From positions 1 to 64,000 of the forward strand of contig JAFZMQ010000011.1 in assembly GCA_017551095.1 (NCBI GenBank): a stretch of DNA of 64,000 bases, given 5' to 3'. A model generated the notes under the pieces. The model did no database searches. It had not been told where the DNA came from and worked only from the letters and a program-made list of their open reading frames with translations. Made by a program: the position numbers and the translations under genes. Origin of the DNA: Clostridia bacterium (GTDB taxonomy: Bacteria; Bacillota; Clostridia; UBA1381). Positions 10,328 through 39,135 of the stretch are shown here, in pieces. The stretch's first letter is position 1; every line of letters begins with the position of its first letter.

Positions 10328-10606
10328 TCAAAAACTCGCCCCAAAGACATACTAAAATCTTTGAGACGAGCATTAAACCCGTGGTACCACTCAAATTGCG
10401 TCAAATATGACGCCACTTCAAACTCTGACAAGTTCTATACACTAACGCAGCAAACTCGGAAAGGTTCTACTTACCAAAAAGGCTTTCTTCCTTTCAGCTC
10501 CGAAGCTACAAATATTCTAAAAAATCTGCACACTCACACCAACCGTCTGCTCTCTCGAAGATTTTTGCTTAGAATACCCTCTCCATCAACGCTTTTATAT
10601 TCAATT
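10328..10606 (-). promoter_or_regulatory. T-box leader 1 (controls the acyl-CoA synthetase A / VOR operon)
   Basis: tRNA-sensing leader on the minus strand. The antiterminator core reads GAGTGGTACCACGGG (10379-10393), with TGGT able to pair with the tRNA NCCA end. A terminator follows: CTCGTCTCAAAGA / TCTTTGGGGCGAG then TTTTT (10328-10370). Stem I shows GAGAGAGC, GGTTGGTG and a GATGG...GGAGC kink-turn pair. Anchoring on the kink-turn puts the specifier at GTA (Val, 10507-10509). Anchoring on GAA next to the upper helix would give TAT (Tyr, 10512-10514). Existence of the T-box is clear; its amino acid is not settled. Confidence 0.92.
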
Positions 10607-12937: not shown

Positions 12938-13204
12938 ATAAAAAACCGCCTCAAAGAAAACCTTTGAGACGGGTAAAAACTTTTTCCCGCGGTACCACTC
13001 AAATTGCACTATAAAGTGCCACTCAGGCTCCATCAAGCCTTATGCATTAACGCAGCAATCACGAAAGACACTACTACAAATTTCGCATCTTCGGCTCAGA
13101 AGCGATGGGTCATTGAAAGTCTGTTTTATTGGCTCGCAGCAACCGCCAACTCTCTTTAAAACAAATACTCTCGACCGTCTTCATCACAGCCTTTAATAAT
13201 TGTC
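12938..13204 (-). promoter_or_regulatory. T-box leader 2 (controls acyl-CoA synthetase B)
   Basis: Second tRNA-sensing leader on the minus strand. The core is GAGTGGTACCGCGGG (12987-13001), and the terminator is CCGTCTCAAAGG / CTTTGAGGCGG with a T-run (12938-12972). Stem I contains GTGATGA, AGAGTA, AAAGAGAG and a TGAGCC kink-turn partner, closed by GGCT/AGCC. The kink-turn register gives specifier ATC (Ile, 13104-13106), in the same frame position as GTA of leader 1 (x-GTA-g-CTTC versus x-ATC-g-CTTC). An S-turn register would give TTT (Phe, 13116-13118). Confidence 0.92.
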
Positions 13205-36538: not shown

Positions 36539-36567
36539 TTGCAAAAGAAACGAAACTATGATATATT
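36539..36567 (+). promoter_or_regulatory. Promoter of the structured RNA candidate
   Basis: TTGCAA (36539-36544), 17-bp spacer, TATATT (36562-36567). A start seven bases on falls at 36574, exactly the first base of the closing stem of the predicted RNA. Confidence 0.6.
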
Positions 36568-36573
36568 GATATT

Positions 36574-36778
36574 GCCAAATAAATTAAACAATTAAATATG
36601 GGGTATTTTTATTTTTATTCAAAATATTTTTTTCTTTTTTGCATATCCTAAGTATTGAATTTGTAAAAAAACGCAAACTCAACACTTAGGATGAATATAT
36701 CCCATTTTGTTTGATTTGTTTGGCGACAATCGGAGTTTGCGTTTTTTATGCGTCGGCTTCGGTTGACGCATTTTTTTA
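36574..36778 (+). ncRNA. Candidate structured non-coding RNA (~205 nt)
   Basis: No protein frame of note. Stem A is an 18-bp pairing of 36574-36591 with 36707-36724 (two G-U pairs). Stem A2 pairs GGGGTAT (36600-36606) with ATATCCC (36697-36703). Hairpin B pairs CCTAAGTATTGA (36647-36658) with TCAACACTTAGG (36679-36690), 11 of 12 matching. Strand C (36666-36680, mostly in the loop of B) is perfectly complementary over 15 bp to 36733-36747, which crosses A and B as a pseudoknot or offers an alternative fold. Terminator D, ATGCGTC / GACGCAT plus seven T, ends it. I recognise no known family. Confidence 0.6.
36748..36777 (+). terminator. Terminator of the structured RNA candidate
   Basis: ATGCGTC (36748-36754) and GACGCAT (36765-36771) around a ggcttcggtt loop, followed by a run of T. 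Confidence 0.85.
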
Positions 36779-36792
36779 TTTTAGGTTTTCTA

Positions 36793-37010
36793 AAAGCCCT
36801 CCTTGTGTAAAGGCAATTACGCCGAAATGCTGCCTGTGGCAGAGAAAATGAGGCGTAATTGGTTCGGTTTTAAGGAGCAATGCAAACGACAGTGAGCATA
36901 GCGACTATAAAACCAGCGGAATGGTGGCAGTCGTAAGACTGACGGAAGGATTGTGATCATAAAACAATCCCTCAGTCACTTCGTGACAGCTCCCTTTACA
37001 CAAGGGAGCC
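36793..37010. repeat. MITE-like repeat, copy 1 (with internal insert)
   Basis: Terminal inverted repeats AAAGCCCTCCTTGTGTAAAGG (36793-36813, one residue longer than shown here by family variation) and CTCCCTTTACACAAGGGAGC (36990-37009). The right half, from GGATTGTG through the palindrome CAGTCACTTCGTGACAG, matches copy 2 with only a few mismatches over about 65 bp. Copy 1 has an extra ~100 bp in the middle containing its own CAATTACGCC / GGCGTAATTG pair. No transposase is encoded. Confidence 0.8.
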
Positions 37011-37114
37011 AAGAAAATGAAGTGTGCAACTCCCTTTACTACATGCGGAGCCTATTAAAGAATGTTTTTAAGCCAAAAGGCATAAAAAATAAACAAATTT
37101 TAAGGAGGACAAAA

Positions 37115-38686
37115 ATGAAAAGAAAAATTTTGGTTTTCGGCATAGTTTTATGTATGCTGATTACAATGGCGGTAACGCCTGTGGGGGCAACAGTAGTTAA
37201 TAGTGGTACTTGTGGTGATAATCTTACTTGGACGCTTGACGATGTTGGCATACTAACCATAAGCGGCAGCGGAGCGATGGAGAATTATGGATATCCCCAT
37301 TATGCACCTTGGTATCTCTGGTCATCAGTTAATACCGTCATTATCCAAAATGGTGTAACAAGTATAGGTGATGGTGCGTTTATGGGTTGCAGCAATCTAG
37401 AAAACATCACAATCCCAGACAGCGTGACAAGCATTGGAGTGGGCGCGTTTTACTCTTGCAATAGTCTCATATCTATAACAATACCTGATAGTGTAACGAG
37501 CATTGGCACTCAAGCGTTTGTTGGTTGCTGTAGCCTTACCTCAATCACAATCCCAGACAACGTGACGAATATTGGCACTAGAGCGTTTTCCAGTTGCACC
37601 AGCCTCACAAGTATCACAATCGGCAATGGCGTAACGAGCATCGGGAATCAGGCGTTTTACGCTTGCAACAGTCTCACGAGCATCACAATCCCTGAAAGTG
37701 TGACGAGTATCGGCTATAGAGCGTTTAAAGGTGACAGCATGGAGGAAATAGCAGTTAGTCAAAATAATCAAAACTATTCTTCTGAAAACGGAGTTCTTTT
37801 TAATAAAAACAAAACATCCCTTATAGACTGCCCCAGCAAAAAAACAGGAAGTTATACAATTCCCAATAGCGTAACAACCATTATTGGTCATGCGTTTGAC
37901 AACTGTAGCAACCTCACGAGCATCACAATCCCTAATAGTGTAGCATCTATTTGTGAGTACGCATTTACTGTTTGTAGCAGCCTAACATCAATCACAATCC
38001 CAGACAGCGTGACAAGCATTGGCGAAAATGCGTTTCGCCTTTGCAGTAGCCTCACAAGCGTCACAATCCCTAACAGCATGACGAACATTAGTAAAGGTGC
38101 GTTTGAGAGTTGCGAGAGCCTTACTGATGTGTATTACGGCGGAATCAAGAGCGAATGGGACAGAATTTCAATAGGCTTACATAATGCCCAATTAACAAAT
38201 GCATTTATACACTGCAACGATATTTCTTCCAAGCAACTGACAAATGTGCAGGACAATAGTGGAAATACATTAACACTTCTTGAAAATGCAGTTCTTGACA
38301 TAGGCGAAAATTTATATTTCCGAAACGGGTATGTTGACGCGTCAAAGGGATACATAAAGACAGGCGACAGGAAGATTACGGGAAGTAATATACATTTTAC
38401 AAACGAGGGCAAAATCCGCTTAGATGACGGAGAAAATGCCAAAATCGTGCGTGACAATGGCGACGGCACAACAGACCAAGGATTTGTTTTCGGCAAATAC
38501 AATCCGTCAGGTATCGTAAAAGTAACATTAGATGCCACAGGCGAGGCAGGAGGCGTCGACTACACAGGAAAGACTGTTGAACATGAATTTGATTTTACAA
38601 GCAGTGAAATGTATGGACTTATCAATTTTGGGTTTGCAATAAATAATATTCCAAAGCCTATAAAGTTTTATGTTCACGAGGATTAA
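37115..38686 (+). CDS. BspA-like leucine-rich repeat surface protein
   Basis: A secreted 523-residue protein. The start is the ATG of MKRKILVFGIVL, 6 bp after AAGGAGG; frame upstream of it lies in the MITE-like repeat. Signal peptide (~1-26, ending PVGA), an N-terminal LTWTLDDVGILTISGSGAM module (~35-55), then about ten 23-residue LRR_5 units of the form VTSIGxxAFxxCxSLTSITIPxS, interrupted by an island (residues ~200-235). A C-terminal ~140-residue domain follows. The 69-bp repeats are very alike at DNA level. BspA-type proteins bind host or microbial surfaces. No LPXTG, SLH or other anchor is visible. Confidence 0.88.
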   Translation: MKRKILVFGIVLCMLITMAVTPVGATVVNSGTCGDNLTWTLDDVGILTISGSGAMENYGYPHYAPWYLWSSVNTVIIQNGVTSIGDGAFMGCSNLENITIPDSVTSIGVGAFYSCNSLISITIPDSVTSIGTQAFVGCCSLTSITIPDNVTNIGTRAFSSCTSLTSITIGNGVTSIGNQAFYACNSLTSITIPESVTSIGYRAFKGDSMEEIAVSQNNQNYSSENGVLFNKNKTSLIDCPSKKTGSYTIPNSVTTIIGHAFDNCSNLTSITIPNSVASICEYAFTVCSSLTSITIPDSVTSIGENAFRLCSSLTSVTIPNSMTNISKGAFESCESLTDVYYGGIKSEWDRISIGLHNAQLTNAFIHCNDISSKQLTNVQDNSGNTLTLLENAVLDIGENLYFRNGYVDASKGYIKTGDRKITGSNIHFTNEGKIRLDDGENAKIVRDNGDGTTDQGFVFGKYNPSGIVKVTLDATGEAGGVDYTGKTVEHEFDFTSSEMYGLINFGFAINNIPKPIKFYVHED

Positions 38687-38902: not shown

Positions 38903-39013
38903 AAAGCCCTCCTTGTGCAAAGGAGGGTGCTGAGCGTATGCGAAGCGGGAGGATTGTGAGCAGAAAACAATCCCTCAGTCACTTCGTGACAGCTCCCTTT
39001 ACACAAGGGAGCC
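38903..39013. repeat. MITE-like repeat, copy 2
   Basis: A 111-bp element with terminal repeats AAAGCCCTCCTTGTGCAAAG and CTCCCTTTACACAAGGGAGC, and the GGATTGTG...ACAATCC and CAGTCACTTCGTGACAG internal palindromes shared with copy 1. Similarity to the flank of copy 1 continues weakly (CTTCCTTTACTACAT). The 38852-39135 interval holds no gene besides this repeat. Confidence 0.82.
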
Positions 39014-39135
39014 AAGAGAAAAAGAGGAGCGTTAATAACTTCCTTTACTACATCCAGAGCAAGAAATTTCGGTGGTGACAGTGCTAACAAGGCAACAAGG
39101 GAGCCGAATATAAATTTATAAAAAAAGATTATCAC

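Follow-up and report, generated by a model that had tools for sequence, protein, structure and literature searches.

A multi-copy structured RNA of Clostridia with mutually exclusive helices, probably acting as a conditional transcription terminator

The 64,000-nucleotide stretch of clostridial DNA analysed here, hereafter called the window, contains a structured RNA element at 36574-36776 of the forward strand. The element is one of three copies in its own genome (C2:36574, C5:53926 and C26:63135, located with the covariance model R1), and R1 matches, taken as the RNA family, occur in 65 of the 95 genomes of the order with up to 16 copies each. The family has mutually exclusive helices that are maintained by compensatory change and lies directly before a gene start in most copies, which together point to a cis-acting transcriptional switch, i.e. 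a conditional terminator, a reading to which we assign a probability of about 0.78.

All the features that an earlier note had described in the window copy were present: a promoter, a closing stem, an inner stem, a hairpin, a 15-nt complement and a terminator (Table 1). The hairpin, there given 11 of 12 base pairs, is longer, with 17 of 19 positions paired. The 15-nt strand is indeed a perfect complement of a region outside the closing stem, but only about half of it is loop, the rest belonging to the 3' arm of the hairpin, so that hairpin C and the C:C' pairing compete. The closing stem, P1, has 18 base pairs, two of them G-U, and is formed only in RNA of the + strand. The predicted fold of 36574-36790 had an energy of -66.6 kcal/mol versus -34.6 (sd 3.8) for shuffled sequences (z -8.5), and the RNA of the opposite strand was less stable (-49.7 kcal/mol). 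The opposite strand was rejected as the RNA on account of this weaker fold and the strand-specific G-U pairing. The fold is thus much more stable than chance would give, but a perfect 15-nt complement is less remarkable: in a stretch so rich in A and T, 2.4 % of dinucleotide shuffles have one. A promoter scan of the window alone found two promoters with 2.8 expected, which is not above chance. The single window sequence is suggestive of a structured RNA; comparison with homologues settles that the structured RNA is real.

Table 1 Features of the RNA element and its surroundings in the window
Feature	Position	Strand	Remarks
Promoter, sigma-A type	36539-36567	+	TTGCAA-17-TATATT, extended -10 (TGn)
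P1, 5' strand	36574-36591	+	First base is the inferred transcription start
P2, 5' strand ATGGGGTAT	36598-36606	+	Minimum free energy fold
Hairpin C, 5' arm	36645-36663	+	Fold; inner 7 bp counted in alignment
Strand C	36666-36680	+	Second half of loop and first part of 3' arm; pairs with C'
Hairpin C, 3' arm	36674-36692	+	Fold
P2, 3' strand ATATCCCAT	36697-36705	+	Minimum free energy fold
P1, 3' strand	36707-36724	+	36716-36719 also 5' strand of X
Helix X	36716-36729	+	UUGU 36716-36719 with ACAA 36726-36729; excludes middle of P1 and AT
Antiterminator AT	36727-36765	+	36727-36737 with 36755-36765, plus GCGU 36739-36742 with 36750-36753
Strand C' GAGUUUGCGUUUUUU	36733-36747	+	Overlaps AT 5' arm
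Intrinsic terminator T	36748-36777	+	10-bp stem, UUCG loop, U-run (stem-loop 36748-36771)
MITE-like repeat	36797-37010		Inverted ends 36801-36813/36993-37005
Probable regulated gene, BspA-type leucine-rich repeat protein	37115-38686	+	LRR_5 1.5e-79; hydrophobic N-terminus; RBS AAGGAGG at 37102-37108

The earlier note missed the multi-copy nature of the RNA. R1 was built from 42 copies; its E-values are rough, and weaker reverse-strand matches, shadows of the same helices, were removed. In a sample of the class, 71 of 391 genomes and at least 47 of 220 genera gave matches, counts that are floors since at most six candidates were scored per genome, and in a phylum-wide sample of 299 genomes R1 found the window's own genome and no new one. 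At E ≤ 1 a DNA search gave relatives in each of the 61 genomes; many are due to chance, but several align across the entire element with 71-81 % identity. A pattern taken from the conserved 3' part was found at no fewer than 118 places in public genomes. Their titles name Clostridia or Bacillota throughout, and almost all come from uncultured gut isolates of ruminant, rabbit or other origin. The copies fall into two length classes, a long one of about 190-230 nt to which the window copy belongs (R1 scores of 120-197 bits) and a short one of about 145-180 nt (50-110 bits), which share the promoter, P1, C core, C', AT and T. At L030, L052, L054, L064, L196 and L204 elements stand in tandem, and every one of them has a promoter and a terminator to itself. 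In 61 of 111 long copies (among them L021, L023 and L108) the element contains a further small hairpin, of the form GG..CC and with a U-run, which is perhaps a pause site or an early terminator and is degenerate in the window copy.

No Rfam 15 family reached its gathering threshold for the RNA, and searches with the window copy, L108 and L186 gave nothing credible at that threshold or at E values up to 10. The conserved string GGAGTTTGCGTTTTT was absent from the open-licence literature, where no matching family description was found. The family is therefore provisionally regarded as undescribed. The earlier description as an unrecognised structured RNA with a pseudoknot-capable pairing and a promoter and terminator of its own was borne out. 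Exact matches were found neither in viral contigs (0) nor in plasmids, and a phage origin was rejected, the one copy of that kind being in an unverified phage-labelled faecal contig (L214, MT835503.1, 338-531). There the element leads an EcoRI-type methylase gene, behind which lies a GmrSD/HNH endonuclease gene. The idea that strand C binds some other target in the genome was also considered and rejected; in the own genome the C-strand pattern occurred only in the copies and at one further place with one mismatch.

The promoter is a constant part of the element. Of the 156 copies with enough upstream sequence, and with spacers of 15-18 allowed, 134 have a -10 box 6-7 nt upstream of the element, 134 have TGn in front of the -10, and 128 have a -35/-10 spacer of 17. 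This fixed spacing makes a transcription start at the first base of P1, as proposed for the window copy alone in the earlier note, well supported by comparison between copies.

Comparison of the copies shows P1, C:C', AT, T and X to be kept by compensatory change. In alignment A2, the combination of P1, C:C' and T had 98.3 % paired cells and 15 pairs changed on both sides, versus 7.0 in shuffles, none of 500 reaching 15, and 1-6 in slid versions; the alternative combination of P1, hairpin C and AT had 96.3 % paired cells and 13 such pairs. Across 102 copies P1 had 95 % of its cells paired and showed numerous compensatory changes; AT was paired in 98.8 %, including an A-U/U-A swap (e.g. CAATC/GGTTG for CTATC/GGTAG), and T in 99.5 % with compensatory changes, its upper stem changing freely among copies. 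P2 rests on the fold, the alignment there being too poor for a covariation count. A stem search made without a prior structure was topped by C:C' (15 bp), AT (10), P1 (8), C (7) and T, and the top ranks of mutual information in 102 long copies were pairs of P1, AT, X and T. On the tree, same-branch compensatory changes numbered 12, 24 and 11 in P1 versus 1.2, 3.9 and 0.6 expected, and 3 and 2 in AT versus 0.2 and 0.1, with unrelated column pairs at chance.

For C:C' (A2 columns 115-129/193-207) 97.8 % of cells were paired and four pairs had changed on both sides, a count to be read against the near invariance of C and C' in the long class, which leaves few variable pairs, and against the 80 loci that came via a pattern fixing part of C', which makes conservation there partly a matter of construction. 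The tests of P1, X, AT and T are mainly independent of the letters so fixed, and independent support besides the pattern-derived loci comes from BLAST-derived copies and the short class. Co-changes were found at L023 and L048 (GUUUACG with UGUAAAU) and at L030, new sequences in both strands at L054 and L055, and internal mismatches in the short class. Homologues that break the closing stem (stem A of the earlier note) and C-C' without compensation were looked for and not encountered, changes in P1 and C:C' being compensated.

Two helices, the antiterminator AT and helix X, had been missed in the earlier note, and it is their addition that gives a terminator/antiterminator switch. AT, which belongs to the computed fold of the window copy, shares its 3' strand with T, excludes T with the support of covariation, and is mutually exclusive with C:C'. 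In helix X, the UUGU of the P1 3' strand pairs instead with the ACAA that follows it. Its four pairs were compatible in 148-156 of 162 copies, with pair types of GC 149/AT 5/TA 1, TA 145/CG 1, TA 97/AT 26/GT 25/CG 2 and TA 131/AT 4/CG 3. Mutual information gave covariation of 3p14 with tail11, and at an ACAA position four of four changes on the tree coincided with pair-keeping changes of the partner (0.3 expected). Support for X is not uniform, as the pair 3p13-tail12 had two coincident changes that break pairing. The helix is weak (-1.6 kcal/mol) and would matter only with P1 open, a role that we infer. Neighbouring helices share strands in the series P1-X-AT-T, and mutual information and the stem search together recovered the chain 5p8-3p14-tail11-T17-T8, which runs through P1, X, AT and T by a single column of each, so that the four helices constitute a strand-exchange relay. 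The possibility of a two-state switch raised from the window copy is thus strengthened, its mutually exclusive helices being kept by compensatory change. An unpaired AAUA after P1 and the C loop are also conserved.

The following course of events is proposed. Transcription would start at the first base of P1, and P1 and hairpin C could form during synthesis. In the ON state hairpin C would hold strand C and P1 its own 3' strand, leaving CAAUCGGAG free, so that AT could form and RNA polymerase would read into the gene. In the OFF state C would pair with C' and block AT, X may take the P1 3' strand, and T would form and stop transcription after about 200 nt. A factor, be it a metabolite, a protein or an RNA, would shift the balance between the two. 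Mean energies were -16.5 kcal/mol for C:C', -15.6 for T, -16.6 for AT and -4.4 for inner C, and the average state energies of -32 kcal/mol for C:C' with T versus -21 for inner C with AT suggest that OFF, i.e. termination, is the resting state, which stays uncertain since these energies ignore the pseudoknot cost and folding kinetics. At L035 (about 1729-1827) the middle of the element is lost and the promoter, the P1 5' strand and the terminator are kept, with a gene behind; if the model holds, this natural deletion should terminate constitutively.

Of 170 copies, 93 have an RBS and start codon no more than 40 nt behind the terminator (73 of the 118 long copies, 20 of the 52 short ones); the control counts were 2 of 162 for the opposite side of the elements and 25 of 510 for random places. 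The family thus has its intrinsic terminator in a 5' leader, with a gene immediately behind it, and gaps of this size leave no room for a separate promoter. A stand-alone regulatory RNA, one of the readings offered earlier, finds no support as a general description, most copies being leaders with a gene start right after the terminator. In the window 339 nt separate the element from the start of the BspA-like gene. A MITE-like repeat lies in this interval and was probably inserted between terminator and gene; six more places in the genome are related to this repeat, one of them at 38946-39020, beyond the BspA-like gene. Position and the arrangement in relatives make regulation of this gene by the element probable.

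The downstream genes are unrelated to each other and code for BspA-like proteins, lipoproteins, and other secreted and accessory proteins. BspA-type LRR_5 was found in 16 of 112 distinct downstream proteins, and other domains were dockerin, SLH, CHAP, trypsin, zinc-ribbon, AMP-binding and MazE/AbrB-like; simple rules gave a hydrophobic N-terminus for 68 of 116 proteins and a lipobox for 31 of the 116. Directly behind the element a family of proteins of about 40-60 amino acids (YKxMYxxLxxxVxxxIExL...Q...EExYI) was observed at L024, L025, L026, L036, L068, L121, L190, L199, L203 and L204, one of which, when tested, had no match in Pfam, and a small cysteine-rich protein (LTPGE..xCLGNGE.GFECCCDECDY) recurs at L064, L072 and L082. 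About 30 of the 52 short copies have no gene start behind them on the same strand (among them L175, L183-L187, L189, L191, L197, L200-L202 and L212). These often face convergent genes, near mutS2, leuS and others, with the switch parts still conserved. They may act in trans, affect the neighbouring gene by antisense or precede small genes that escaped recognition.

The short copies before convergent genes are also what lends some credit to a stand-alone, trans-acting small RNA next to which the downstream genes would be coincidental or served by other promoters, as do the promoter and terminator carried by the element and the tandem copies with a promoter each (L030, L054 and L204). This explanation is nevertheless unlikely, given the strong excess of gene starts within a gap too short for another promoter and an antiterminator kept by compensatory change, for which a pure small RNA would have no obvious need. 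Transposition could be served by the structure if the element were a MITE-like mobile repeat, as many dispersed and some tandem copies would allow, but the P1 strands pair through G-U, as in RNA rather than in DNA repeats, copies that share a genome differ strongly from each other and show compensatory changes, the promoter is fixed and the copies are oriented towards genes, which makes such an origin very improbable. Translation of a leader peptide might choose between AT and T in a ribosome-dependent attenuator, in keeping with the terminator/antiterminator architecture and an ATG-to-stop frame from 36598 onward in the window copy. That ATG, however, has no Shine-Dalgarno sequence, lies less than about 25 nt from the start and is missing in other copies (e.g. 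L017), and an internal start led by a Shine-Dalgarno sequence was present in only 14 of 156 copies; a conserved translated short frame was not encountered, and this hardly credible alternative was rejected.

That the RNA has diverged from a switch already known, such as a c-di-GMP riboswitch, a BglG/RAT or ANTAR target or an L20 leader, is brought to mind by the many unrelated surface genes, which recall c-di-GMP regulons, and by a weak match of L20_leader to L108 (20.1 bits versus a cut-off of 58.7, E 0.089), yet with no Rfam family at threshold it is very doubtful. GGDEF proteins were not detected in the copy-rich genomes G005 (7), G030 (6), G055 (5) and G039 (3), some of the genomes being incomplete drafts, and these several-copy genomes make c-di-GMP unlikely as the universal signal. 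Of 61 genomes only 6 have proteins with CAT_RBD, and none of these 6 carries the RNA; such proteins were absent from the window's genome and from all RNA-bearing genomes sampled. An ANTAR protein is present in the window's genome, and none was found in G049 (16 copies) or in many other RNA-bearing genomes. Obligatory control by c-di-GMP, BglG or ANTAR is thus unlikely.

The proposed conditional terminator resembles riboswitches that combine a pseudoknot with a terminator platform (fluoride, preQ1 and ZMP) in being a 5' leader with P1, a pseudoknot-type pairing, and a mutually exclusive terminator and antiterminator with strand exchange. It differs from them in having no known ligand or Rfam match, in regulating unrelated genes, in the overlap of the C:C' strand with the antiterminator and in the sharing of strands by four serial helices. 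As with c-di-GMP riboswitches, many copies per genome, including tandems, precede genes for surface and secreted proteins, but the RNA has no Rfam match and several genomes rich in it have no detectable GGDEF protein. A factor-dependent choice between antiterminator and terminator, as in protein-controlled attenuators (BglG/RAT, ANTAR, PyrR and L20 leader), is one possible mode, although the BglG-type RNA-binding and the ANTAR domains are absent from many RNA-bearing genomes and the conserved parts of the element do not match those of the four systems. T-box leaders are likewise clostridial leader RNAs with a terminator and an antiterminator, but the T-box model has no match here and the genes are not amino-acid related. 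The window itself has two T-box leaders on the - strand, at 10359-10598 and 12962-13196, above the Rfam gathering score. The expression platform would work like that of a riboswitch or attenuator; membership in a named class is not claimed.

A wider and more tentative proposal, to which we give somewhat less than even odds, is that the RNA belongs to an undescribed class of switches responding to a signal, in which the promoter, the P1-X-AT-T relay, the C:C' lever and the terminator form a portable cassette that puts dispersed and mutually unrelated surface and accessory genes of gut Clostridia under one signal, with the gene-less short copies acting in trans as its decoys or reporters. The exposure of several mutually exclusive helices by compensatory changes is unusual for an expression platform and offers ready-made mutants, and the covariance model allows annotation across many genomes now. 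If the proposed switch is real, it would be a common yet unlisted regulatory RNA that apparently controls surface and accessory proteins of uncultured gut Clostridia, with a regulon that points to interaction with the host, food or neighbours.
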